A DNA stretch of 44,615 nucleotides from Mariprofundus sp. EBB-1 (lineage in GTDB: Bacteria; Pseudomonadota; Zetaproteobacteria; Mariprofundales; Mariprofundaceae), in the NCBI RefSeq assembly GCF_003665155.1, contig NZ_RCFQ01000026.1, positions 1-44,615 of the forward strand, read 5' to 3'. The position numbers and the translations under genes are program-made. Below are positions 10,730-26,934 of the stretch, piece by piece (position 1 is the first letter of the stretch; every line of letters starts with the position of its first letter). The notes below the pieces were generated by a model. The model was not told the DNA's origin, did not search any database, and worked only from the letters and a program-made list of their open reading frames with translations.

Positions 10730-11971
10730 ATGAATATTGTACGTGCTTTGAAATGTCGCGAATGTGGTCAGGAATATGATATTGAGCCGACGCATGTGTG
10801 TGAGTTCTGTTTTGGACCGCTGGAAGTGGTATATGACTATGAAAAGCTGGATGGGTATTTTACCCGGGAGCTGATTGAGTCGCGTCCACAGACCATGTGG
10901 CGTTATAAAGAGCTGTTGCCAATCAATGGTGATCCGACTGTAGGGGCTCAGAATGGTTTTACACCATTGGTGCGTGCGAAGAACCTTGAGAAGGTGCTTG
11001 GTGTTAAAGAGCTTTATATTAAAAACGATTCAGTCTGTTATCCGACCCTCTCATTTAAGGACCGTGTGGTATCTGTTGCTTTATCCAAAGCTGTTGAATT
11101 CGGCTTTACAACCGTGGCTTGTGCATCAACCGGTAACCTGGCTGGTTCGGTAGCGGCCAATGCAGCGGCAGCGGGCTTGGAATCCTATGTGTTTATTCCA
11201 CATGATCTGGAGCAAGGTAAAATCCTTGGTGCTGGTGTGTTTGGTACCAATATCATCGGTATCAAAGGTAAATATGACGATGTAAACCGTTTGTGCTCGG
11301 AAGTGGCCGGTAAATATGGTTGGGCATTTGTGAATGTGAATGTGCGCCCGTTTTATGCTGAAGGTTCCAAATCACTGGGTTATGAAGTGATGGAGCAACT
11401 GGGCTGGAAAGCGCCTAAACATATTGTTGTGCCGATGGCTTCAGGTTCTTTATGTACTAAGGTTGATAAATCAATTAAGGAATTTATCAAACTTGGTCTG
11501 ATCGAAGATAACCAAACAGCAGTATATGGTGCTCAGGCAACGGGTTGTTCTCCGATTGCCAAGTCTGTGAAAGATGGTACGGATATGATTCATCCGGTGC
11601 ATGCCGATACGATTGCCAAGTCTTTGGCGATTGGTAATCCTGCTGATGGTTACTACGCCAACCGGGTGATCAATGAATCCGGTGGCTGGGCTGAAGATAT
11701 TTCGGATGATGAAGTGGTTGCAGCCATGAAGCTATTGGCTGAAACTGAAGGCATCTTTGCTGAAACGGCTGGTGGTGTGACACTGGGCTGTGCCAAGAAG
11801 ATGATTGAATCAGGTAAGTTGCCGCGTGATGAGTCCATTGTATTGTGTATTACTGGTAATGGCTTGAAGACAATGGAAGCTGTGGCTGATGCGGTTACTA
11901 AGCCACGTATTATTGAAGCAAGCTTGAAAGAGTTTGATCTGTTAGCAGAAGCCGACGGCGTCAATGTGTAA
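10730..11971 (+). CDS. thrC: Threonine synthase-like PLP enzyme
   Basis: Threonine synthase converts O-phosphohomoserine to threonine. This 413-residue protein has a zinc-ribbon N-terminus (C9, C12, C24, C27) and a fold-type II PLP core with the Schiff-base lysine in SFKDR (K110), the STGNLAGS phosphate loop and a C-terminal TGNGLK motif. A GGAG is placed about 9 bases before the ATG. It is the first gene after an S-box riboswitch and precedes sulfur-carrier, CysK, MoeB and sulfite reductase genes. SAM control of a threonine-branch enzyme is unexpected, since ThrC competes with methionine synthesis for O-phosphohomoserine; it could be a housekeeping ThrC in an aspartate/sulfur regulon or a relative using O-phosphohomoserine with a sulfur donor. 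The family call is firm; the substrate call is not. Confidence 0.9.
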   Translation: MNIVRALKCRECGQEYDIEPTHVCEFCFGPLEVVYDYEKLDGYFTRELIESRPQTMWRYKELLPINGDPTVGAQNGFTPLVRAKNLEKVLGVKELYIKNDSVCYPTLSFKDRVVSVALSKAVEFGFTTVACASTGNLAGSVAANAAAAGLESYVFIPHDLEQGKILGAGVFGTNIIGIKGKYDDVNRLCSEVAGKYGWAFVNVNVRPFYAEGSKSLGYEVMEQLGWKAPKHIVVPMASGSLCTKVDKSIKEFIKLGLIEDNQTAVYGAQATGCSPIAKSVKDGTDMIHPVHADTIAKSLAIGNPADGYYANRVINESGGWAEDISDDEVVAAMKLLAETEGIFAETAGGVTLGCAKKMIESGKLPRDESIVLCITGNGLKTMEAVADAVTKPRIIEASLKEFDLLAEADGVNV

Positions 11972-12198: not shown

Positions 12199-12477
12199 AT
12201 GAGTGTAACTGTACGTATCCCAACCCCTTTGCGTAAATTGACTGCTGGTGCTGATGAAGTATCGATTGAAGGCGCTAATGTAGGCGCGATGATTGATAAT
12301 CTGGAAGCAGCTCACCCTGGCCTGAAAGAGCGTCTATGTGATGATACCGGTGAAATCCGTCGTTTTGTAAACATATATGTAAATGATGAAGATGTGCGTT
12401 TTATGGGTGGCCGTAATGCTGAGTTGAAAGATGGTGATGAACTATCCATCGTTCCTGCAATTGCAGGCGGTATTTAA
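12199..12477 (+). CDS. MoaD/ThiS-like sulfur carrier protein
   Basis: A 92-residue beta-grasp protein. Family features are the N-terminal strand MSVTVRIPTPLRKLT, the central VNIYVNDEDVRF, the LKDGDELSIVPAIAGG stretch and a C-terminal Gly-Gly. Proteins of this type are adenylated at the Gly-Gly end by a MoeB/ThiF enzyme and carry sulfur as a thiocarboxylate. Here one Ile follows the Gly-Gly, so the tail would have to be trimmed before activation, as is known for some sulfur carriers processed by JAMM proteases; no such protease is encoded in the window. AGGAG precedes the ATG. Its stop overlaps the start of the NIL gene (TAATG), and the MoeB-like partner is three genes downstream. Confidence 0.9.
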   Translation: MSVTVRIPTPLRKLTAGADEVSIEGANVGAMIDNLEAAHPGLKERLCDDTGEIRRFVNIYVNDEDVRFMGGRNAELKDGDELSIVPAIAGGI

Positions 12478-12823: not shown

Positions 12824-13756
12824 ATGACGATATACAATAATGCAGCCGAAACAGTGGGGAACACTCCTCTGATTCGTTTAAATCGCATTGGTGCTGATCT
12901 TGATGCTGAAATCATTGCAAAATGTGAATTTTACAATCCCTTGAATTCAGTCAAAGATCGTATTGGTAAAGCCATGATTGAAGCGGCAGAAGCTGACGGT
13001 AGTTTGAAACCGGGTGGCGTGATCGTTGAAGCTACATCGGGAAATACCGGTATTGCACTGGCTTTTGTTGCACGAGCCAAGGGTTATCGTTGTATTTTGG
13101 TGATGCCTGAATCAATGAGTCTTGAGCGTCGCAAATTGTTGAAACTACTGGGTGCCGAATTGGTTTTAACACCTGCTGAAAAAGGCATGAAAGGAGCGCT
13201 TGCTGAAGCTGAGGCGATAACAGCATCTTCTGAAGGCGCATTTATGGCGCAGCAATTTGATAACCCGGCCAACCCTGAAATTCACCGCCAGACTACGGCA
13301 GAAGAGATCTGGGCTGATACCGATGGTAATGTTGATGTGTTGGTGGCTGGCGTTGGTACAGGTGGTACGATCACAGGTACGGCAGAAGTATTGAAAGCGC
13401 GTAATCCGAATTTCAAGGCTATTGCGGTAGAGCCTGCTGATTCGCCGGTGATGTCCGGTGAAGCTCCTGGTCCTCATAAAATTCAAGGTATTGGCGCTGG
13501 TTTTATTCCCAAGAACTTGAATATGGATATTGTTGATGGTGTTGAAAAGGTCAGCAATGACGAAGCATTTGCAATGGCACGCCGTCTCTCCAGTGAAGAG
13601 GGAATCCCTGGTGGTATTTCATCTGGTGCTGCTGTTGCCGCTGCACTTAAAGTGGCAGCTAAACCTGAAATGAAAGGCAAACGCATTGTCGTGATTCTGC
13701 CATCAATGGCAGAGCGTTATATGTCTACGGATCTGTTTAAAGGCATCGAAATTTAA
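12824..13756 (+). CDS. cysK: O-acetylserine sulfhydrylase (cysteine synthase)
   Basis: It replaces the acetyl group of O-acetylserine with sulfide to give cysteine, using PLP. Motifs in order: [16 protein letters not shown] with the PLP lysine K44, the substrate loop [10 protein letters not shown], the PLP phosphate loop [10 protein letters not shown], and GGISSGAAV near the C-terminus, ending [17 protein letters not shown] lies before the ATG. In cysteine synthases of the CysM type paired with a sulfur-carrier protein the donor is a carrier thiocarboxylate; the CysK-like ISSGAA and ERY motifs here fit the sulfide-using type, but the sulfur carrier close by leaves the true donor open. Confidence 0.93.
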
Positions 13757-13855: not shown

Positions 13856-14677
13856 ATGATTGATTTTACAGAAGAACAAATTGAGCGCTATTCGCGCCAT
13901 ATTATTTTGCCGGAAGTGGGTGCTGAAGGGCAGTCTAAACTGCTTGAATCCAAAGTATTTATGATTGGTGCTGGTGGGCTTGGTTCGCCAGTAGCTTACT
14001 ATCTGGCTGCAGCCGGTGTTGGTACCATTGGTATCGCCGATGCGGACGTGGTGGATTCATCCAATTTACAGCGTCAGATTATTCACAATCAGGATCGTAT
14101 TGGTATGCCCAAGGTGGAGAGTGCGCGTGAAACCATGCAAGCACTGAATCCTGATGTGAAGGTCAATACCTACAACTATTTTGTGACCGAAGACAATATT
14201 CGTGAGATTATTTCCGAGTATGATTTGATCATCGATGGCTGTGATAATTTTCCGACCCGGTTCCTGGTTAATGATGCCTGCTATATGGAAAAGAAACCGT
14301 TGATTTCCGGTGCGATGTTCCGTTTTGAAGGTCAGGTTGCCACGTTCAAACCACATCAGGTGAAGGGCGCTCCATGTTACCGTTGTCTCTATCCTGAGCC
14401 ACCACCAGCAGGTTTGGTTCCCTCTTGTTCGGAAGCGGGTATTTTGGGTGCCTTAGCTGGTGCAGTGGGTACGATTCAGGCTGTTGAAGCCGTAAAAGAA
14501 TTGCTTGGTATTGGTGATTCTCTGGCTGGCAAGTTGATGGTGTTCGATGCGCTGCGCATGGAATGGAAGAAACTGAAACTGCGTAAAGATCCGGGTTGCC
14601 CTCTTTGTGGTGATAATCCAACCATTACTGAGCTACAAACTTACGAACAAGCCTGCGAACTGAAGTTCGGCGAGTAA
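13856..14677 (+). CDS. moeB: MoeB/ThiF-family sulfur-carrier adenylyltransferase
   Basis: It adenylates the C-terminal glycine of a ubiquitin-like sulfur carrier. The 273-residue chain shows the nucleotide loop GAGGLGSP (39-46), the acidic ADADVVDSSNLQRQ stretch, DGCDNFPTR, the putative catalytic Cys in SCSEAGILG (C191) and a zinc site of two CxxC pairs (C174/C177 and C248/C251). There is no rhodanese extension, so it cannot supply its own sulfur from a rhodanese domain. The natural client is the MoaD-like protein at 12199. It is flanked by repeats D and E. Confidence 0.92.
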   Translation: MIDFTEEQIERYSRHIILPEVGAEGQSKLLESKVFMIGAGGLGSPVAYYLAAAGVGTIGIADADVVDSSNLQRQIIHNQDRIGMPKVESARETMQALNPDVKVNTYNYFVTEDNIREIISEYDLIIDGCDNFPTRFLVNDACYMEKKPLISGAMFRFEGQVATFKPHQVKGAPCYRCLYPEPPPAGLVPSCSEAGILGALAGAVGTIQAVEAVKELLGIGDSLAGKLMVFDALRMEWKKLKLRKDPGCPLCGDNPTITELQTYEQACELKFGE

Positions 14678-14770: not shown

Positions 14771-17116
14771 ATGACAACATTTGATTTTGCACAGACGGCC
14801 GATGTCGATGAGTTCGAAGCGGGTTATAAGGCCTTTAAAGCTGGTACCATGTCTGAAGAGCGCTTTACACCATTTCGTTTACAGATGGGTGTATATGGTC
14901 AACGTCAGGAAGGCGTGCAGATGGTGCGTGTTAAATTGCCGGGTGGTAATGTTACACCGGATCAGCTGGATGTGATCGGAGATTGTGTGGCTGATTATGC
15001 CGGTTGTATGCCAACTGATGGTACGCTGAGCCAGGCTCCTGAGAAATTTGCCCATGTCACTACACGTCAGGACATTCAGGCGAATTTTGTAAGTCTGGAT
15101 GATGTGCCGGCTTTTTTACGAAGGCTGGATGCCGCAGGGCTGACTACACGCGAGGCGTGTGGTAATACAGTACGCAATGTCACGACCTGTTTTTTAGCTG
15201 GGCGTTGTCCAGCAGAAAATACCGATGTGTCGGTACATGCACGCCGTTTTGCTGAATATTTTTTACGTCATCCCCTGGCGCAGCAATTTCCACGCAAGTT
15301 TAAAGTAACATTCTCCGGTTGTGATACCGATTGCGGTCTTTCCGGTATGCACGATGCAGGTTTCATTGCTACAGTGAAAGATGGTGTGAACGGCTTTAAA
15401 GTGTGGGCTGCTGGCGGTTTGTCGTCCCAGCCAATGAGCGCGCTATTGTTGGAAGACTTTATTCCTGAATCCGATGTTCTGCTTGTCGGTGAAGCGTTAA
15501 TGCGTATGCATTTTAAATTTTCTGATCGTAAACGTCGTGCCCGTGCACGCTTGAAATACGTGGCGCAGAAGCTCGGTGCAGAAGGATTTGTTGAAGAGTA
15601 TAAAAAACAACGCGCAGTGATTGAAAGCACGCATGTTGGTGATAGCGATTATGTTGCGTCAAATTGGCGTCAACCTACTGCTGCATTACCGAGTTCTGAC
15701 ACCGGTGTGGTTGATCAGCATAATGGTAAAAAAGCGGTCTTGCTGAATCTGTTCCGTGGTGACCTTATACCGGCACAGTGTCACGCGGTTGCTGATGCAG
15801 CACGTGCAGCAGGTACGCATGCATTGAGTGTTACCGCTGAGCAGGGCTTTGTGATTGCCGACGTTGATGCTGATCAAGTTGAAACATTGGTGAGCAGCCT
15901 GGTTGATGCCGGTTTGGCTGTTGAGTATGCCCGTGGTATCGCTGATGTGACTGCTTGCCCCGGTACAGAAACCTGCCGTCTGGGTATTACTTCCAGCCGT
16001 GGTTTGGCACAAGCACTGCAGCCTTTGATGGCTGACTTGAAAAAGGATGCAACATTGGCCGGTATTACGGTTAAAGCATCAGGCTGTCAGCACTCTTGTG
16101 GCCGTCACCATATTGCCGATCTCGGTTTCCATGGTATGGCCAAAAAAGTGGCAGGTCAGGCTGTACCGCACTATCAATTGCATGTGGGTGGTTCAGGGGT
16201 AGGTGGTTCAGCCCTGGCATTTGCGACAGACCCGGTACCAGCTAAATATGCACCGGAAGCGGGTATTGCTGTGCTAAATGCATACAAATCCGGTCGTCTT
16301 GAAAATGAGTCCACCCATGATTGGGCTGCGCGTTTGGGCAAAGAAGGTTTATCTGAAATTCTAGCTCCGTTTAAAGCCGATGCTGGTGAAGTCGATGGTC
16401 TGATTTACGACTGGAGCGAAAACGAAGCGTTTAATACCAAGGGCAATAAGAAGGGCGAGTGTGCCGGAGCGGTACTCTCGATGTCTGATGCGTTGATCTC
16501 AGAGGCAGAGTATGAAATGCTGCTTGCACGCGCACATATTGATGCCATGTTCTGGGCTGAAGCACAGACTGCTCTGCGCCGTTCTGTTATCTCAGCAGCA
16601 CGTGCTTTTCTTGTCGCTTATGGCGAAGCACCGGAAGCAGATGCTGAGGTGTTTGGTCTGTTAATCGCTAATGCCGGTGCTGATGCCGATGTGATGGCTG
16701 GTTTTAATGCCGTGCAGGGTGCGATGATGAGTATTGATCTGGCCGATCCGGGTGCCGGTGTGACCAAATTACGTGAAGTACAGTCGGCCTGGTTAGCAGT
16801 GGCTCAGAAACGTTTTGCTGCGGTTCCGGAAACGCCTGAAGCTGTTGTGACTGAAGAAGTAGCAGTAGTCGTTGAGAGTTCGGATGTTACCTTGCTTGAT
16901 TTGACTGGTGTGGCGTGTCCGATGAATTTTGTGAAAACCAAAATTAAGATGAGCATGATGCCTGTTGGTTCTTTGCTGGATGTGATTCTTGATGATGGTG
17001 CACCGATTGAGAATGTACCGCTATCACTTGAAGAGCAGGGGCAGACAGTGCACAGCAAAGAGAAGATTTCAGATAGCCAGTGGAAAATAAGAGTGGAGAA
17101 AATTTCGTCGATTTAA
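14771..17116 (+). CDS. Sulfite reductase with C-terminal helical and TusA domains
   Basis: A 781-residue sirohaem enzyme reducing sulfite (or nitrite) by six electrons. It has two tandem repeats of the NiR/SiR fold. The second repeat carries the classical sirohaem-4Fe4S cysteines C396-x5-C402 and C439-x3-C443 (ACPGTETC, SGCQHSC), and the first has a similar set (C130, C140; C184-x3-C188), so a second cluster is possible. From about 560 to 690 comes an Ala-rich all-helical segment, and from ~705 a TusA domain with LTGVACPMNF (CP motif, C716). TusA-type Cys carry persulfides. Sulfite reduction in this operon is therefore probably linked to protein-bound sulfur. The AGAGG before the ATG lies at repeat E. 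Confidence 0.88.
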   Translation: MTTFDFAQTADVDEFEAGYKAFKAGTMSEERFTPFRLQMGVYGQRQEGVQMVRVKLPGGNVTPDQLDVIGDCVADYAGCMPTDGTLSQAPEKFAHVTTRQDIQANFVSLDDVPAFLRRLDAAGLTTREACGNTVRNVTTCFLAGRCPAENTDVSVHARRFAEYFLRHPLAQQFPRKFKVTFSGCDTDCGLSGMHDAGFIATVKDGVNGFKVWAAGGLSSQPMSALLLEDFIPESDVLLVGEALMRMHFKFSDRKRRARARLKYVAQKLGAEGFVEEYKKQRAVIESTHVGDSDYVASNWRQPTAALPSSDTGVVDQHNGKKAVLLNLFRGDLIPAQCHAVADAARAAGTHALSVTAEQGFVIADVDADQVETLVSSLVDAGLAVEYARGIADVTACPGTETCRLGITSSRGLAQALQPLMADLKKDATLAGITVKASGCQHSCGRHHIADLGFHGMAKKVAGQAVPHYQLHVGGSGVGGSALAFATDPVPAKYAPEAGIAVLNAYKSGRLENESTHDWAARLGKEGLSEILAPFKADAGEVDGLIYDWSENEAFNTKGNKKGECAGAVLSMSDALISEAEYEMLLARAHIDAMFWAEAQTALRRSVISAARAFLVAYGEAPEADAEVFGLLIANAGADADVMAGFNAVQGAMMSIDLADPGAGVTKLREVQSAWLAVAQKRFAAVPETPEAVVTEEVAVVVESSDVTLLDLTGVACPMNFVKTKIKMSMMPVGSLLDVILDDGAPIENVPLSLEEQGQTVHSKEKISDSQWKIRVEKISSI

Positions 17117-17148: not shown

Positions 17149-19800
17149 ATGATGTCATCCAGTACTGATCTGCATCCATTTGCTAATCCGGGGCGTACCA
17201 AGCTCTCTCTGGTTAGTCGTGGCGTGGCGTTGCCTGATGGCTTGCAGCATGCATCCCAATGGGTGTCGCAGGCCAATGCCATTGAGACTGTACTGGATAT
17301 TAAACTACCCACCGGCCAGTTGTGCACGGTGCCGGTTGGCCAACCTTATACACAGCAAAGTAGTTTTTCTTTAGAACAGAAGGGTGATAAAACGTTGCTG
17401 CATTGCGGTGGTGAAGTGTCTGAAGTGACGCTGATTCCTGCTCCTGTATTTTATCAGAAGAAAACACGTAGTGGTGCCCGCATGGGCAGCTTTGCGTCGC
17501 TGCATGATAGATTGTTGATTCTGCATCCGTTCATGGGCTGTGGTTTTTTTAATCAGTCGGGTAACGCCTGTCAGTATTGTCAGTACGAATCGATGACGAA
17601 TGAGGATCAGCCGCCACTGCGTGATCCACTGGAGCTGGTTGAGGCGGTGCGTGCTGCCTTGGCTGAACGTGAAGTAGAAACGGTGTATCTGTACAATGGT
17701 TATTCCCCTTCCGATGATGTGGGGTTGAGACAGTTGGTGGCCGTGATTGCACTGCTGCGTAAACATCTGGGACACCGGCAAATTGCGCTGGAAACAATTG
17801 CACCGCTTGATGTACAAGTGATTGATGAACTGTATGAAGCTGGCCTTGATGTGTTTGTCTGTAATCTTGAGATCAATGATGCAGAGCGATTCGCACAAGT
17901 GTGTCCGGGTAAGCATGCGTCCGGTGGACAGGATGCGATTTATGGCGCACTGCAATATGCTCGTTCTGTGTTTCGTGCAGGTGCTGTGGTTAGCCATCTG
18001 ATTGTGGGGTTGGAGCCACTGCAATCTACACTTGATGGTATGAAAAAGTTAATTGAACAGGGCATTGTACCGATGTTATTGCCATTCAGGCCACTGCCGG
18101 GTACGCCGTTATGTGACAATTCATTACCTAGCCTGGATGACGTCGAGCATGCGCTGTTGGTGCAATATGAGCTGCTTGAGCATTCTGGCCTACCCACGCA
18201 TCGTTTAAGAGATATGGGACGCGTATTAACGCCGATGGAGAGTGGGCTGCTGATTGGTAAAGATCCTTATCTTTCAGAACAGGTTATTACTTCAAGTATG
18301 GGTAGTCATGTGTCGGGCTGGATGGATGCTTTGCGTCGTTATCTGCGCTCCAATGGCAAAGTGGATGAGAACTATCAGCAAACACTGAACAAGCCGATGC
18401 ACTTGCTATTGGCCAAAGAGGGGATTCCCTATTTCGCACTGATCATACTCTCTGCTCTGGGGCTCTGGGCAGGTGCTCAGGATATTCCTGCCGGATTAAC
18501 TGATAGCGGCTGGAATGCATTGCTGATCTTCCTCTTCTGTCTTGCGCTATGGGTGTCTGGTTTAATCCCGTTGGCAGCGACTTCGTTGCTGGGGTTGGCT
18601 CTATTGCCGCTGACCGGGGTGTTGGATGCAGCAGAGGCCTATAGCATGTTTGGTTCATCGGCGCTGTTTTTTATACTTGGTGCCTTTATGTTGGCAGCTG
18701 GTGCGCGCGTAACCGGCCTCTCAGAGCACATGGCTCTGGCATTGATTGACCGCGTGGGTTCCGGGCCCAAGCAGTTGCTGATGGCGATGTTGTTTCTCCC
18801 TGCTGTGATGGCATTTTTTATGCCGGAGCATGCGGTGGCGGCTGTGTTTTTACCCATTGCATGGGAAATTGTACGCAGTCTGGATCTGAAAATCGGTGAT
18901 CGTTATGCCCAATCGTTATTTTTTGCGGTGGCCTGGGGAGCTATCATTGGTGGAGTGATGACGCTGCTCGGTGGAGCACGCGGGCCTTTGGCGCTGGGTA
19001 TGGTACAGGAGATTAGCGGGCAATCCTTTAGCTTTATGGACTGGACAATGGCAGCAGCACCTGTGGTGATTCTGATGCTGCTGCTGGCCGCAGTGATTTT
19101 GTTGGTGATTACACCCTTTGAAGGTGTGAATGTTGATCGGGCACGTCAGTGTGTCGAGCGTCGTCAGTTGGAAGTGGGTAATTTAGAGCCGCGTGGCTGG
19201 TTGATGGGCGGATTGTTATTGGTGACAGTGATTGCCTGGATGTTTGCCGGCCATGCGCTGTCATTGGCTTCGATAGCTCTGCTCAGTGTGGCAGCTATGT
19301 TTGCATTGCGGTTGGTGCGCTGGGATGAAATTGAGCAGCATGTTAGCTGGAGTGTGGTGCTGATGTATGGTGGTGCTATTGCAGTAGGCTCTGCTTTGAG
19401 TGTCAGTGGTGCAGGGGCGTGGGTAGCGATGCAATTTTTCCCGGCCGGTCTGGTTGGTCTGTCATTGATGATTGTATTGACGATTGCAACGCTGTTGCTG
19501 ACAGAAGGGGTGAGTAATGCTGCTGCGGTCGCTATACTGCTGCCCATTGCGATTCCGGTTGGTCTTTCTGCCGGTATTGACCCGTTAACGGTTGCGTTAA
19601 CGGTTGGTATTGTAGCGGGTTTTGCTTTTATGCTGCCGATGGGAACACCACCGAATGCGATGATTTATGCAACGGGTTTTGTGCAGCGTTTGGCCATGCT
19701 ACGTTTTGGCGGCATGCTTTCGCTGGCTGCATTGATCCTGTTCGTTGTTGTTTCAAGCCTGTGGTGGCCAATGGTAGGCGTTGGGCTTAGTGGTTCATAA
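17149..19800 (+). CDS. Radical SAM-SLC13 (sulfate/anion permease) fusion protein
   Basis: An 883-residue two-part protein. Residues 1 to ~410 are soluble and look like a radical SAM TIM barrel: an unusual cluster C131-x9-C141-x2-C144 (CGFFNQSGNACQYC), then VETVYLYNGYSPSDDVGLRQL, ALETIAPLDVQVIDELYEAGLDVFV and PFRPLPGTPL. From ~417 the chain is a polytopic SLC13/DASS-type permease with about a dozen hydrophobic segments, including FFMPEHAVAAVFLPIA, VSNAAAVAILLPIAIPVG and TPPNAMIYATG. The first Na+-motif reads PEH, not SNT, as in a recalled subfamily of anion permeases. No stop or frameshift separates the halves. The gene stands between sulfite reductase and cysD, so sulfate or related anion uptake is the natural guess for the permease; the role of the SAM half is unknown. 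Confidence 0.82.
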   Translation: MMSSSTDLHPFANPGRTKLSLVSRGVALPDGLQHASQWVSQANAIETVLDIKLPTGQLCTVPVGQPYTQQSSFSLEQKGDKTLLHCGGEVSEVTLIPAPVFYQKKTRSGARMGSFASLHDRLLILHPFMGCGFFNQSGNACQYCQYESMTNEDQPPLRDPLELVEAVRAALAEREVETVYLYNGYSPSDDVGLRQLVAVIALLRKHLGHRQIALETIAPLDVQVIDELYEAGLDVFVCNLEINDAERFAQVCPGKHASGGQDAIYGALQYARSVFRAGAVVSHLIVGLEPLQSTLDGMKKLIEQGIVPMLLPFRPLPGTPLCDNSLPSLDDVEHALLVQYELLEHSGLPTHRLRDMGRVLTPMESGLLIGKDPYLSEQVITSSMGSHVSGWMDALRRYLRSNGKVDENYQQTLNKPMHLLLAKEGIPYFALIILSALGLWAGAQDIPAGLTDSGWNALLIFLFCLALWVSGLIPLAATSLLGLALLPLTGVLDAAEAYSMFGSSALFFILGAFMLAAGARVTGLSEHMALALIDRVGSGPKQLLMAMLFLPAVMAFFMPEHAVAAVFLPIAWEIVRSLDLKIGDRYAQSLFFAVAWGAIIGGVMTLLGGARGPLALGMVQEISGQSFSFMDWTMAAAPVVILMLLLAAVILLVITPFEGVNVDRARQCVERRQLEVGNLEPRGWLMGGLLLVTVIAWMFAGHALSLASIALLSVAAMFALRLVRWDEIEQHVSWSVVLMYGGAIAVGSALSVSGAGAWVAMQFFPAGLVGLSLMIVLTIATLLLTEGVSNAAAVAILLPIAIPVGLSAGIDPLTVALTVGIVAGFAFMLPMGTPPNAMIYATGFVQRLAMLRFGGMLSLAALILFVVVSSLWWPMVGVGLSGS

Positions 19801-19865
19801 AAGCGTGGATGATAAGCTTACGTTAAAGATGATGAAGATACGCGTAATAATGGTAGGAGATACAA

Positions 19866-20789
19866 ATGTCTGACAATAAAATATCTGAGCATAAACTGAC
19901 CCAGCTGAAAGCGTTGGAAGCAGAATCGATTCATATCATACGTGAAGTGGTGGCTGAGTTTCGTAATCCGGTGATGCTCTATTCAGTGGGTAAAGATTCG
20001 AGTGTGATGCTGCATCTGGCACGCAAGGCTTTTTATCCTGCGCCGTTGCCATTTTCGCTGTTGCACGTGGATACAGGCTATAAATTTAAAGAGATGTATG
20101 AGTTCCGTGACAGCTACTGCAAAGAAGTTGGCGCTGATCTGATTGTGCGTCGCAATGAAGATGCGATTGCTAAGGGCATGAACCCGAAAGAACATGGTGT
20201 GGCGCGTTGCTGTGGTGCGCTAAAGACACAGGGGCTTCTGGATGCGCTGGAAGAGGGTGAATATGATGCGGCCTTCGGTGGGGCGCGTCGTGATGAAGAG
20301 CGCTCGCGTGCGAAGGAACGTGTGTTTTCCATGCGTGATGAATTTGGTCAGTGGGATCCGAAAAATCAGCGGCCTGAATTATGGAGTCTCTATAATGGCA
20401 AGATTCACGATGGTGAATCCGTACGTGTATTCCCGATCTCCAACTGGACCGAGATGGATGTCTGGCTCTATATCCGCGAAGAGAATATTCCAATCGTTCC
20501 TCTTTATTTTGCTAAAGAGCGTCCAATGGTTATACGCAAAGATTTCCTTATTCCGTATTATGAAGAAACCAAAGATCAGCTGCTTGAAGGTGAAGAGCCT
20601 ACCATGGTGATGTCCCGTTTCCGGACCTTGGGTTGCGGCCCTTGCACAGGTGCAGTGCGTTCGGATGCAACCAATATGGATGAGATTGTTATTGAAGCTG
20701 CAGCAGCGCGTCGTTCGGAACGTGAGACCCGTATCATCGATCACGGTTCCAACAGCATGGAAGATAAGAAGAAAGAAGGCTATTTCTGA
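19866..20789 (+). CDS. cysD: Sulfate adenylyltransferase subunit 2
   Basis: CysD, the catalytic ATP-pyrophosphatase subunit, makes adenosine 5'-phosphosulfate from sulfate and ATP with CysN. The ATP loop [12 protein letters not shown], the [12 protein letters not shown] segment, the [15 protein letters not shown] block and the [14 protein letters not shown] region are all in place, and the 307-residue length is normal. AGGAG lies 6-7 bases before the ATG. It is followed by a set of hairpins before cysN, so expression of the two may be uneven. Confidence 0.96.
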
Positions 20790-20945: not shown

Positions 20946-22229
20946 GTGATGACAAAATTGAATATCAAAATGGCTAAGGAAATTGAGCTGCTGCGTCTGG
21001 TGACGGTGGGTAGCGTGGATGATGGTAAATCGACGTTGATTGGCCGTCTGTTGGTGGATACCAAAGGTGCTTTTGAAGATCAGCTTTTGGCCGTGCGCAA
21101 GAAGAAGGGCACAACACATATTGCCTCGGCTGGCGAGATTGATCTGGCTATGCTGACCGATGGTTTGTCAGCTGAGCGTGAGCAGGGCATTACGATTGAT
21201 GTGGCCTACCGTTATTTCGCGACGCCAAAACGTAAATTTATCATGGCTGATTGTCCGGGGCATGAGCAGTACACGCGTAATATGGTGACCGGTGCCTCTA
21301 CAGCCCATGCAGCCATTATTTTGATTGATGCACGTAATGGAGTGTTGGCACAAACCAAACGTCATACCCATATTCTTGGACTGTTGAATATTCCGCATCT
21401 CATCGTAGCTGTGAACAAGATGGACATGGTTGGCCATGATCAGGCGGTGTTTGAAAAGATTCGTCTGGATATGCAGGAGTATTGTGCCAAGCAGGGTATC
21501 AATGATCTGATCTGCCTGCCGATGTCAGCGCTTGATGGTGATATGGTGGCAGTACGTGGTGATAAGATGGACTGGTATGAAGGTAATACCTTACTGGAGA
21601 CACTGGAAACACTGTCAGCACTTGGTGATATCGATAAGCAGCCATTCCGTCTGCCTGTACAGCTGGTGAATCGTCCTCAAACAGCAGATTTGCCGGATTA
21701 CCGTGGTTTTATGGGAACGATTGCTTCGGGTACGGTGAAGGTGGGTGATGAAGTGGTTGCCGTGCCAAGTGGTAACACCTCTACTGTAAAAGAGATTGTG
21801 ACCTTTGATGGCAATCTGGAAGAGGCATTTGCACCGCAGAGCATTACGTTGACCTTGAATGATGAGATTGATGTCTCGCGTGGGGATATGTTGACCCACG
21901 TTGGAGATAAGGCGCTCGACGCCAAAGAACTGACGGCCAATGTCTGTTGGATCGGTGATGAGCCGCTGACTGAGCGCAAAAAGTATCTTCTGAAGCATAC
22001 AACCAATACGGTGAAAGCGATGGTGGCCAGTATTGATTTTCGTCGCGACATCCATACCTTGAATAAGGATGCGTCGGATGAGCTGGCGATGAACGAGATT
22101 GGCCAGATTACGTTCAAGCTGATGAAGCCACTGCACTACGATTCATATGCAGACAACCGTTTCACTGGCAGCTTTATTCTAATCGATACCTTTACCAATA
22201 ATACTGTGGGTGCAGGCATGATTGTCTGA
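20946..22229 (+). CDS. cysN: Sulfate adenylyltransferase subunit 1 (GTPase)
   Basis: CysN is the GTP-hydrolysing partner of CysD. G-motifs are clear: G1 GSVDDGKSTL, G3 DCPGHEQY, G4 NKMD, and SAL. The 427 residues end with FILIDTFTNNTVGAGM, so there is no fused APS kinase (CysC). The start at 20949 or 20946 follows GAGGG by 6-7 bases; I keep 20946 at the first possible codon but the ATG at 20949 fits as well. It is the last gene before the terminator at 22253. Confidence 0.95.
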   Translation: MMTKLNIKMAKEIELLRLVTVGSVDDGKSTLIGRLLVDTKGAFEDQLLAVRKKKGTTHIASAGEIDLAMLTDGLSAEREQGITIDVAYRYFATPKRKFIMADCPGHEQYTRNMVTGASTAHAAIILIDARNGVLAQTKRHTHILGLLNIPHLIVAVNKMDMVGHDQAVFEKIRLDMQEYCAKQGINDLICLPMSALDGDMVAVRGDKMDWYEGNTLLETLETLSALGDIDKQPFRLPVQLVNRPQTADLPDYRGFMGTIASGTVKVGDEVVAVPSGNTSTVKEIVTFDGNLEEAFAPQSITLTLNDEIDVSRGDMLTHVGDKALDAKELTANVCWIGDEPLTERKKYLLKHTTNTVKAMVASIDFRRDIHTLNKDASDELAMNEIGQITFKLMKPLHYDSYADNRFTGSFILIDTFTNNTVGAGMIV

Positions 22230-22410: not shown

Positions 22411-22848
22411 ATGAATGAAGCAGTGTCGTTGCATGCCAATGCAGCAGAATTACTGGGGGCAGAAAACATTCAGTTGAAAGAGACCATTGCGACCTTGCGG
22501 GATGTACTTGAGTCTAATAATGCAGCGTCGGCACAACGCACTGCCGATGCCTGTATGGCACTGGAACGAGAAGTATCGCAGCTCAAAAAAACGATCTCAG
22601 AAATTCGCCAGACAATGGATGCGCTGCATGCCGATCATGTGGAACAGTTGTTTGTGATGAAGCAGGAGTGTGCAAAAGAGGTTGGACAATACCAACAGAA
22701 TATTGCAAAGCTCAGGGCTCGTCTGGAAGTAAATATACATGAAAGCATACAGCGTGGGCATGCTGAGCATATGAAGTCCAGTGCTGAAGTGATGCAATTA
22801 CAAGATACGATTGTTGCTCTCAGAGAAGCATTGGAGAGGAAACAATAA
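22411..22848 (+). CDS. Coiled-coil protein preceding the adenylate cyclase
   Basis: A 145-residue soluble protein made largely of heptad-repeat helix, with three similar blocks: ENIQLKETIATLRDVLE, REVSQLKKTISEIRQTM and EVMQLQDTIVALREALE. It contains no catalytic motif I recognise. The longer frame back to 22222 runs through the terminator and cysN end, so I start at the ATG at 22411, which has GGAG 6 bases upstream. Its stop overlaps the next ATG (TAATG), so it is translationally coupled to the cyclase. It may be a dimerisation partner or scaffold for the cyclase; this is inference. Confidence 0.7.
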   Translation: MNEAVSLHANAAELLGAENIQLKETIATLRDVLESNNAASAQRTADACMALEREVSQLKKTISEIRQTMDALHADHVEQLFVMKQECAKEVGQYQQNIAKLRARLEVNIHESIQRGHAEHMKSSAEVMQLQDTIVALREALERKQ

Positions 22849-25130
22849 TGGCCGACTATCCCTTGCAAAGGGATGATATAGCAGGTTCAGATGGCGAAAA
22901 AATGCGTCATATGGAGATGTTGCTAAATATTACCCATACCATTGCTATCATGGATAGCATTGATGATGTATTGAATGCATTGGTGGCACTGACAACGACT
23001 GAAATTAATGCAGAGCGGGGCACTATCTTTCTCAATGACCCCAACACGGGTGAGCTTTTTTCACGCATTGCCCATGGTGATGTGCAGAGAGAAATTCGTT
23101 TTCTGAACAGTAGTGGTGTGGCTGGTTGGGTGTTTCATGCCGATCAGGGTAAAATTATTCCTGATGCTTATAAAGAAGAGCGCTTTAACCGTGATATTGA
23201 TGAGCAAACAGGTTATGTGACCAAAAATATTCTATGCGCACCGATTCGAACCGTAAAAGGTGAAGTGATCGGTGTGGCTCAGGTACTGAATAAAAAGAAA
23301 GGTAAATTTACTACTAACGATCTCTCCTTGCTGGAGTCGATGACTACCCAGGCAGCGATAACCTTACAGAATGCTCAGTTGGTGGATCAGGCTAAAAAGA
23401 GCCATGGTAAAGAACTGGAATTTCTTGATCTGGTCTCGAATGTGATTGCTGAACTCGATCTTACCGTGCTGTTGCAACGGGTGATGAAAGAAGCAACACG
23501 CATGCTCAATGCCGAGCGTTCCACCCTGTTTTTGAATGATGAGAAAACAGATGAATTATGGTCGCAGGTGGGCATGGGTATTGAGTCCAGCATTATTCGT
23601 TTCCCCAATCATCTGGGTATCGCAGGCAAGGTGTTTACCAGCGGAGAGACCATGAATATTCCGCATGCTTATGCGGATCTGAATTTTAATCCTGCATTTG
23701 ATAAACAGACCGGTTTTTTCACCCGTTCCATTTTGTGTGTGCCGGTGGTGAACAAGCAAGGTAAGTTGATAGGTGTTACGCAGGTGCTGAATAAAAAGGG
23801 TGGCCCGTTCTCGTCCGAGGACGAGTCCCGTTTGCGGGCATTCACGGCGCAAATTTCTATTGCCTTGGAAAATGCCAAATTGTTTGATGATGTGCAGAAG
23901 ATGCAAAACTATAATGATAGTATGCTGGAAAGTATGTCTAATGGTGTGATTACATTCGATGAAGATGGCTATATTGTGACTTGTAATACGCCGGCTTTGA
24001 ATATGTTGCATGTTGCAGATGAATCTGAGCTTATCGGTCAAAAAGCTGAAGTTTTCTTTGTGAATGGGAATGGCTGGATTGTTGAAGAACTGCAGCGTTT
24101 AAATGACAAGGAAGAACCATATCTTGCCATGGATGTGGAGCTTAATATTGAAGGTGGTTCTATATTTGCCAACCTGACTTTTGTGCATCTGCTTGATCAA
24201 GATAAACAGCGCTTGGGCAAGATGATGATGATTGAGGATATTAGCTCCGAGAAACGTATGCGCTCGACGCTGTCCAAGCATATGGATCCTAGTATCGCCA
24301 ATAATTTATTGGATGAATCAGAAGATATATTGGGTGGCAAAGAGACGAACGCAACCATTCTCTTCTCTGATATTCGTAGTTTCACCAGCATTACAGAAGA
24401 GCTGGGGGCGTTAGGGACAGTTAATTTATTGAATGAATATTTCACTTTAATGGTGGAGTGTATTCGTGCCGAGGGGGGCATGCTCGATAAATTCATTGGT
24501 GATGCGATTATGGCTGCCTTTGGTGTACCGTTGAAGCATGAAGATGATGAAGACAGGGCGGTGCGTGTGGCGATCAGTATGATGAAGGCACTAAGTCGAT
24601 GGAATATTGAGCGCGAGGCTGCTGGCAAACCTGCCGTGCATATTGGTATCGGTTTGAATAGTGGTCATGTGATTACAGGCAATATCGGTTCACCGACCCG
24701 AATGGATTACACCATCATTGGTGACGGCGTGAATTTGGCGGCTAGATTGGAGAGTGCTTGTAAATATTATAAAACACAAATTCTGATCAGTGAGAATACC
24801 TATAAGGCCTTAAAAGGCACGTACAAAATCAGGCCGGTTGATCGCGTGGTTGTAAAGGGTAAATCGTTACCGGTAGATATCTATGAAGTGCTGGATCATC
24901 ATTGTGAAGAGAGTTTCCCTGATTTGATGGATACGGTGAACTATTTCACCGAAGGTTTATCTTGTTACAGGGCATCAGAATGGGATAAAGCAATCAGCAA
25001 ATTTGAACGTGCCTTAGAGCACCATCCAGATGATGGTCTATCTCAGATGTATATTGAACGTTGTATGGTGCTTAAGAAAAACCCTCCAGCAGATGAATGG
25101 GATGGTGTGTGGGAAATGACAGATAAATAG
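22848..25130 (+). CDS. GAF-GAF-PAS class III adenylate cyclase
   Basis: A 760-residue soluble sensor enzyme. Two GAF domains (about residues 25-175 and 190-345) share the FLNDxxTGEL and NIPHAY-like motifs, then a PAS-like segment (MLESMSNGVITFDEDGYIV, ~360-480) leads into a class III cyclase domain (~500-690). Metal Asp residues are D508 (FSDIR) and D552 (FIGDAI). K548 and T622 (MDYTIIGDGVN) are the Lys/Thr pair expected for ATP, so the product should be cAMP. A TPR-like C-terminal tail (residues ~705-760) follows. The downstream cyclic-nucleotide-binding protein fits as effector. Which ligand the GAF or PAS domains sense is unknown. Confidence 0.92.
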   Translation: MADYPLQRDDIAGSDGEKMRHMEMLLNITHTIAIMDSIDDVLNALVALTTTEINAERGTIFLNDPNTGELFSRIAHGDVQREIRFLNSSGVAGWVFHADQGKIIPDAYKEERFNRDIDEQTGYVTKNILCAPIRTVKGEVIGVAQVLNKKKGKFTTNDLSLLESMTTQAAITLQNAQLVDQAKKSHGKELEFLDLVSNVIAELDLTVLLQRVMKEATRMLNAERSTLFLNDEKTDELWSQVGMGIESSIIRFPNHLGIAGKVFTSGETMNIPHAYADLNFNPAFDKQTGFFTRSILCVPVVNKQGKLIGVTQVLNKKGGPFSSEDESRLRAFTAQISIALENAKLFDDVQKMQNYNDSMLESMSNGVITFDEDGYIVTCNTPALNMLHVADESELIGQKAEVFFVNGNGWIVEELQRLNDKEEPYLAMDVELNIEGGSIFANLTFVHLLDQDKQRLGKMMMIEDISSEKRMRSTLSKHMDPSIANNLLDESEDILGGKETNATILFSDIRSFTSITEELGALGTVNLLNEYFTLMVECIRAEGGMLDKFIGDAIMAAFGVPLKHEDDEDRAVRVAISMMKALSRWNIEREAAGKPAVHIGIGLNSGHVITGNIGSPTRMDYTIIGDGVNLAARLESACKYYKTQILISENTYKALKGTYKIRPVDRVVVKGKSLPVDIYEVLDHHCEESFPDLMDTVNYFTEGLSCYRASEWDKAISKFERALEHHPDDGLSQMYIERCMVLKKNPPADEWDGVWEMTDK

Positions 25131-25309
25131 TGTGTTAGGGAACTACTGAATGATTCAGCGTTTCCTTTGAAAGAAAGCATGCATACTGCAAAATCAGAAA
25201 ATTAGTCTATGCTCACGAGACAAGTAAACTTGTTCAGATTGTTCTCTTTGGCAGTATCCGCAAAGAATATTAAATAGTTGAGCAATCATTGTTGGTCAGG
25301 AGTTCAAAT

Positions 25310-25825
25310 ATGACAGGGAAATTAAACCCCAGTGCATTATGGCACAACTACTTTAAACCGCAGGATGATTGGGTTGAAGATACGGCGAAGAAGTGCGAAT
25401 CAAGCCTGTTGTTTCAAGGGTTTTCTCCGACTGTAATCCGTTGGTTTGCTGCTAAAATGCACCCCCGTGAATATGATGCGGGCGAAACGGTTTTCCATGC
25501 TGGAGATGAAGGTGCTGGAGCCATTTTACTGCGCTCTGGCAGTATCGCTATTCGTAGTAAAGGAGTTGATCTGGCCACCATGAAAGCGGGAGATTTGTTT
25601 GGTGAAGTTGCACTGGTGGATGGACAAGCGCGTACAGCAGATGCAGTAGCTATTGAACCGTGTGAACTGGTGTTCTTATTGCGTACTGACTTGAATGACT
25701 GGATTAATAGTCAGCCTAAACATGCTTGTATTTTGTTGAAAAATTTGGGAGCAATGTTGGCCGGGCGTTTGTTAGAATCCAATAAGAACTTCTCCAGTGT
25801 GGTCAAGGAGGAGTCTTCCAGATGA
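25310..25825 (+). CDS. Cyclic-nucleotide-binding domain protein
   Basis: A 171-residue protein with a single cNMP-binding fold: the strand REYDAGETVFHAGDEGAGAILLRSG, the phosphate-binding cassette FGEVALVDGQARTADAVA with the conserved Glu and Arg, and the hinge region CELVFLLR. There is no DNA-binding helix-turn-helix after it, so it is not a Crp-like regulator but a stand-alone cAMP sensor or a partner subunit. AGGAG lies before the ATG at 25310. Its end overlaps the start of the AI-2E family gene by four bases (ATGA), so the two are coupled. It probably reads cAMP from the upstream cyclase. Confidence 0.9.
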   Translation: MTGKLNPSALWHNYFKPQDDWVEDTAKKCESSLLFQGFSPTVIRWFAAKMHPREYDAGETVFHAGDEGAGAILLRSGSIAIRSKGVDLATMKAGDLFGEVALVDGQARTADAVAIEPCELVFLLRTDLNDWINSQPKHACILLKNLGAMLAGRLLESNKNFSSVVKEESSR

Positions 25826-26934
25826 TTGAGCGTCGCCATAGCGATCGACGGGCAGGATCAAGCTATCACCCTGTTATTTTGGCTACAGGTGTATTTCTGG
25901 CTGGTTTGCTGGCGGTTTTTTGTATTCTGTTTGTTGCTAATCCGGTTATTTTTGCACTTTGTGTGTCGCTTGCACTGTTTGCTGTGCTATCGCCTGCAGT
26001 TGACTATTTTCTTCAGCGGGGATGGCCGACAGCCAAAGCTTCAGGCACTGTGATGGGGCTGGCAACGATTGGACTGATTCTTGTCGCGGCACTGTTGTAT
26101 CCACTCTTGATGACACAAGTGAAACAGATATCTGAGCAAGTCAGTCATCTGGATCAACAACTGTTGCTTGTGTTAACCAATACAAACACCTGGTTGGTTA
26201 GTCATGAAATTTCATCGATCAATGCACAGGAATTAACAGACTCTATTCTCAAACAAGTAGGAGAGCAGGGGTCAAGTACGATTGATAGTATGACTACGTT
26301 CTTTTCCCATATTGCAACCTCTCTGGTATTGATTCCCTTGGTGACATTTTTCTTGTTATGTGATTTTTTAACATTGCGGAATCAGGCGATGCAGCTGTTG
26401 CCGAATCGTCATTTTGAACTGGGCTGGTTGATCTATATTCGAGCTGCTACTCAACTGCAAAGTTATATTCGCGGTATTTCCATACAAGCGGTGATTATGG
26501 CTACAGTGACGACTATCGGTTTCTGGATAGCTGGTATTGATTATGCCCCCTTGTTGGGGATTATAGTTGGATTGCTCAATATGATTCCTTTCTTTGGTAT
26601 CTCATTGGCTAAAATACCACCTGTTGTGGCCGTGTTGATCTCCAGTGATCCCAGCGCATTAAATATTATTTTAGCGCTTGCCGTAGTGATGATTGCGCAG
26701 GCTGTGGATAATGGTTTTGTGATCCCACGTATTGTCGCAAAGGCTGCCAGCTTGCATCCATTAACAGTTATGCTTGGCGTGATGTTGGGTGGGTATTACT
26801 TTGGTTTCTTTGGTCTGATTCTTACGGTTCCGGTGATGTTTTCTGTCAAAGTTATTTTCAGCGAACTGGTGAGAGGGCTTAGTCATCAGCATTTGAATAT
26901 TCGTATGGATGCGCTAATTCAGAAAAAACATTAA
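25822..26934 (+). CDS. AI-2E family (PerM/UPF0118) membrane protein
   Basis: A 370-residue polytopic inner-membrane protein. It begins with a basic cytoplasmic MIERRHSDRR, followed by a pair of helices (residues ~18-60), a third helix, a soluble region rich in Gln/Ser with QVKQISEQVSHLDQQLL, and the conserved end YAPLLGIIVGLLNMIPFFG, AQAVDNGFVIPRIV and LHPLTVMLGVMLGGYYFG. Family members are linked to export or flux of small molecules, but the substrate of most is unknown. Coupled by ATGA overlap to the cyclic-nucleotide-binding gene, its activity may be cAMP-controlled. Confidence 0.9.
   Translation: MIERRHSDRRAGSSYHPVILATGVFLAGLLAVFCILFVANPVIFALCVSLALFAVLSPAVDYFLQRGWPTAKASGTVMGLATIGLILVAALLYPLLMTQVKQISEQVSHLDQQLLLVLTNTNTWLVSHEISSINAQELTDSILKQVGEQGSSTIDSMTTFFSHIATSLVLIPLVTFFLLCDFLTLRNQAMQLLPNRHFELGWLIYIRAATQLQSYIRGISIQAVIMATVTTIGFWIAGIDYAPLLGIIVGLLNMIPFFGISLAKIPPVVAVLISSDPSALNIILALAVVMIAQAVDNGFVIPRIVAKAASLHPLTVMLGVMLGGYYFGFFGLILTVPVMFSVKVIFSELVRGLSHQHLNIRMDALIQKKH

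Follow-up and report, generated by a model that had tools for sequence, protein, structure and literature searches.

Fusions between enzymes and permeases are generally uncommon, and we know of none in which the enzyme is a radical SAM (rSAM) protein. The earlier note on this DNA had likewise known of no described case, and a search of the open-access literature, which leaves most subscription journals outside its reach, found no paper on a fusion of an rSAM domain to a permease of the DASS/SLC13 family. Each half has better-studied relatives. Na+-coupled DASS permeases of the VcINDY type carry two SNT motifs for substrate and Na+, while in the exchanger LaINDY charged residues take the place of the Na+ ions (PMC7553777); characterized examples of prokaryotic DASS sulfate transporters also exist (PMC5840216). 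Among rSAM proteins, yeast Elp3 has its cysteines C108, C118 and C121 in a Cx9Cx2C arrangement (PMC2757915), the same spacing as in the protein described below.

The fused gene and its distribution in Zetaproteobacteria

The window, i.e., the whole stretch of 44,615 nucleotides analyzed from Mariprofundus sp. EBB-1 (contig NZ_RCFQ01000026.1), contains on its forward strand an open reading frame (17149–19800) that opens with an ATG and codes for 883 residues with no internal stop. The domain assignments which the earlier note had made for the two halves of this frame are both borne out by profile searches. The N-terminal half matches the NCBIfam variant_rSAM model NF045502 over residues 63–333 (17335–18147, forward strand; 1.3e-52, 178.9 bits against a cut-off of 125) and the Pfam Radical_SAM domain PF04055 over residues 139–288 (6.5e-10, 39.9 bits against 29.5); it thus combines a three-cysteine motif with domain matches above the curated cut-offs. 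The C-terminal half matches TIGR00785 (dass, NCBIfam) over residues 446–873 (1e-75, 255.1 bits against 198.6), spanning profile positions 2–444 of 444, and hence is a full-length match to the DASS/SLC13 family; the Pfam Na_sulph_symp domain covers residues 432–877 (18442–19779, forward strand; 7.6e-59). A linker lies between the two (18319–18438, forward strand), with the stretch from R397 to 449 measuring 46–58 residues.

The fusion locus was matched in 74 of 78 Zetaproteobacterial genomes. By a manual count from the resulting table, 62 of the 74 have both halves in a single frame and seven have them as two adjacent genes, with the remaining five being cut by contig ends or ambiguous. The recurrence of the identical single frame in 62 genomes upholds the reading of one stop-free frame without a frameshift, and rules out a sequencing or frameshift artefact. 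The rSAM and DASS domains are accordingly confirmed as joined in one real protein, class-wide in Zetaproteobacteria, with the fused orthologs diverging to about 53–57% identity. The linker differs in both length and sequence among the fused forms, and no conserved internal methionine was found on looking through it in 47 fused rows, which speaks against internal re-initiation yielding two proteins. Where the halves are separate genes, the stop codon of the rSAM gene usually abuts or overlaps the start codon of the DASS gene (e.g., TGATG). At least two changes between fusion and split are required on a tree built from 54 sequences, in which either state may be the ancestral one, and the fused state is present in all three families and most genera. 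Because seven genomes of the class have the halves as separate genes, covalent coupling is non-essential.

Outside the class, the domain-architecture search for both families that the earlier note had proposed found no fused form among about 320 sampled Pseudomonadota; there, proteins matching NF045502 over its cut-off are stand-alone and about 370–440 residues long. A contig scan for close relatives, itself an insensitive method, returned Mariprofundaceae only, and a plasmid search with the sulfite reductase–TusA protein of the operon (see below) found no rSAM–DASS neighbor in the two records examined.

The radical SAM half and its relatives

The presumed [4Fe-4S]/SAM site of the rSAM half is C131-x9-C141-x2-C144 (17539–17580, forward strand). 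All three cysteines are invariant in 47 of 47 Zetaproteobacterial sequences and in 15 rSAM sequences of the Nit1C type (from nitrilase clusters), which rules out a chance spacing; many residues of the barrel are invariant as well. Hence, the positions and spacing reported in the earlier note stand, but the spacing is not the peculiarity it was taken for: going by the alignments, Cx9Cx2C is a family trait of the Zetaproteobacterial and Nit1C branches of NF045502, and it recurs in yeast Elp3. The invariance across these 62 homologs argues for the three cysteines meeting at one site, where they probably hold one [4Fe-4S] cluster. AlphaFold models of the full-length protein and of the rSAM half are of low confidence because few loci were aligned, with mean pLDDT values of 49 and 60 that fall below 50 around the cysteine motif. 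A distant relative of the variant rSAM (L081:7542–8621) has the usual Cx3Cx2C spacing, and for three of its neighbors no NCBIfam family gives a match at E 1e-10.

Comparisons with known rSAM enzymes place this half in the same barrel class as LipA and BioB. Its profile aligns with those of the genome's own LipA (hhalign probability 95, E 4e-8) and BioB (probability 89, E 2e-6), and the nearest Foldseek matches of a weak model are HydE, BioB and LipA. However, when aligned with the genome's own copies of LipA and BioB, it has no counterpart of the cysteines that serve as auxiliary-cluster ligands in these enzymes. Both true LipA and true BioB are encoded elsewhere in the genome, ruling out the rSAM half as a substitute for either.

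The stand-alone rSAM proteins of the Nit1C system (MSMEG_0568 family, TIGR04043) share with the Zetaproteobacterial form the NF045502 domain and the invariant Cx9Cx2C motif at about 25–28% identity; the non-Zetaproteobacterial set was assigned to Nit1C from one locus examined gene by gene, the C-terminal motif shared in the rows shown and the annotation of plasmid records. They differ in lying beside a nitrilase, a GNAT and an AIR-synthase-like gene, whereas the rSAM–DASS gene lies in a cys operon. Further, the Nit1C proteins possess a C-terminal GCGxCGAC motif and a cysteine at position 216, both absent from the Zetaproteobacterial form, which in turn has two cysteines missing from Nit1C, namely C238 (17860–17862, forward strand) and C252 (17902–17904, forward strand), invariant only in the Zetaproteobacterial subfamily. 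Given also that the fusion scores 99.5 bits against TIGR04043, far below the cut-off of 303.7, membership in Nit1C is ruled out. Elp3, another protein with this spacing, modifies tRNA and carries an acetyltransferase domain, whereas Pfam finds no such domain in the rSAM–DASS protein.

The permease half and its operon

The permease half is related to VcINDY and NaS1 by its full-length family match and by fold, with Foldseek retrieving NaDC3, NaS1 and LaINDY. It differs from VcINDY and NaS1 in the added N-terminal rSAM domain and in its motifs: P559-E560-H561 (18823–18831, forward strand) replaces the first SNT motif, GGAR at residues 608–611 (18970–18981, forward strand) replaces the GSPPN-type segment, and the second SNT motif reads S789-N790-A791 (19513–19521, forward strand). 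Both the PEH and the GGAR substitutions are present in every Zetaproteobacterial sequence inspected. With PEH and SNA in place of the two SNT motifs, Na+ coupling like that of VcINDY should not be assumed; one might speculate, by analogy with LaINDY, that E560, H561 or R611 replaces Na+.

A PEHA...GGAR signature is also found in the DASS proteins of the Ilyobacter polytropus plasmid pILYOP02 and of a genome outside the class (G029), which share 34–36% identity and the same pathway context with the permease half but are stand-alone, lacking both the rSAM domain and an rSAM gene in their operons. Beside the Ilyobacter gene are cysC, cysD and a gene that bears the annotation APS reductase alpha. 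More broadly, the EH...GGAR branch of DASS proteins without the first SNT motif comprises at least two forms, PEHA and GEHT (18823–18831, 18970–18981; L104:8309–9583; L105:5866–7287; L135–L144), the latter carried by a third DASS group with GEHT/GGAR; outside Zetaproteobacteria, two unrelated lineages have the PEHA form in sulfate-activation operons. Given this setting of the two PEHA relatives, sulfate is the likely substrate of the permease half. The genome additionally encodes an EI24/CysZ-like protein and a SulP protein, so sulfate may also enter by routes other than the predicted permease; matches to the CysTW permease profile in the genome are below cut-off.

The locus itself is a class-conserved assimilatory operon, in agreement with the sulfate-operon setting first suggested from the sequence. 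Its conserved block codes for a ThrC-like protein, CysO/ThiS, CysK, MoeB, sulfite reductase–TusA, rSAM–DASS, CysH in most relatives, CysD and CysN. In the window, all on the forward strand, these are a ThrC-like PALP enzyme as the first gene of the block (10730–11971), a conserved CysO-like sulfur carrier of the ThiS/MoaD type (12199–12477; PF02597, 3e-16), CysK (12824–13756; TIGR01139, 1.3e-134), a MoeB/ThiF-type adenylyltransferase (13856–14677), a siroheme sulfite reductase with a C-terminal TusA domain (14771–17116; PF01077, PF03460, PF01206) and, downstream of the fusion, CysD (19866–20789; TIGR02039, 6.7e-135) and CysN (20946–22229; TIGR02034, 2.2e-164). CysH, which most relatives have between the fusion and CysD, is absent here (19800–19866), and the genome's other gene of the PAPS-reductase family is on a different contig (C62:35249–35770). 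Farther downstream, an adenylate/guanylate cyclase domain is combined with one PAS and two GAF domains in a single protein (22848–25130), after which come a cyclic-nucleotide-binding protein (25289–25825) and an AI-2E family transporter (25822–26934).

The sulfite reductase–TusA protein is retained in Zetaproteobacteria and in G029, and its architecture suggests that the MoeB/CysO relay could receive sulfide in the form of a bound persulfide. The G029 operon comprises ThrC, CysO, NIL, CysK, MoeB, CysH, sulfite reductase–TusA, ATP-sulfurylase and PEHA/GGAR DASS, and contains no rSAM gene; thus, the sulfite reductase–TusA pathway has no general need of the rSAM protein. The earlier note had further proposed that the imported anion could be modified, sensed or used by the SAM part. 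The analysis lends no support to this proposal: relatives of the permease occur in sulfate operons without any rSAM protein and seven Zetaproteobacterial genomes have the halves split.

Possible roles of the fusion

Our preferred interpretation, which we hold with reasonable though far from complete confidence, is that of a membrane-tethered two-domain protein, in which a sulfate-importing permease and a single-cluster cytosolic rSAM enzyme would both serve assimilatory sulfate reduction. The EH/GGAR-type DASS half would import sulfate for the ATP-sulfurylase encoded next door. The rSAM half is predicted to be a LipA/BioB-class enzyme with one [4Fe-4S] cluster on C131, C141 and C144, and is expected to be cytosolic, given the basic character of the residues that precede the first membrane helix. 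There it may catalyze a radical reaction in sulfur assimilation, in which C238 and C252 might take part. Through the fusion, the two halves would be made in equal amounts and the enzyme would sit at the membrane; the existence of the halves as separate adjacent genes makes strict channelling unlikely.

The fusion might instead simply reflect proximity, with operon neighbors merged by the loss of a stop codon, equal dosage as the only consequence and an rSAM target unrelated to transport. The abutting TGATG junctions mean that one small change separates the two states, and both the persistence of split forms in seven genomes and the variable linker are in keeping with such an origin; yet the fused state has persisted across three families and in most genera, the tree requiring as few as two changes, whereas more frequent breakage would be expected of a fusion that brought no benefit. 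We regard proximity as a real but minority possibility. The resemblance of the rSAM half to LipA and BioB in sequence and fold, the sulfur-relay genes next to it and its two extra invariant cysteines would also suit a sulfur-inserting enzyme that takes sulfur from the sulfite reductase–TusA/CysO relay. Against this, the cysteines of the auxiliary sulfur-donor cluster of LipA and BioB lack counterparts and the C-terminal GCGxCGAC of Nit1C is missing, making sulfur insertion improbable. Least probable, in our estimate, is that the rSAM half acts as a sensor, reading sulfur or iron–sulfur/SAM status and gating uptake by the permease. SAM and Fe–S clusters are indeed downstream products of sulfate assimilation and a covalent tie to the transporter could suit gating, but the invariant cluster cysteines and many invariant barrel residues look enzyme-like, tight gating would be lost in the split forms, and we know of no precedent for such a sensor.

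A bolder reading that goes beyond the two-domain protein we prefer would have the rSAM half perform, via C238/C252 and the Cx9Cx2C cluster, a hitherto undescribed radical step of sulfur assimilation at the importer's inner face, such that uptake and use of sulfur are physically joined throughout the class; this we offer as an unlikely but conceivable elaboration.

Zetaproteobacteria are a class of marine iron oxidizers, and the near-universal presence of the fusion among them suggests an unrecognized radical step or regulatory link in sulfur assimilation. The pairs of split and fused forms constitute a natural experiment. Within the DASS family, a sulfate-specific branch may be recognizable by the EH/GGAR signature.
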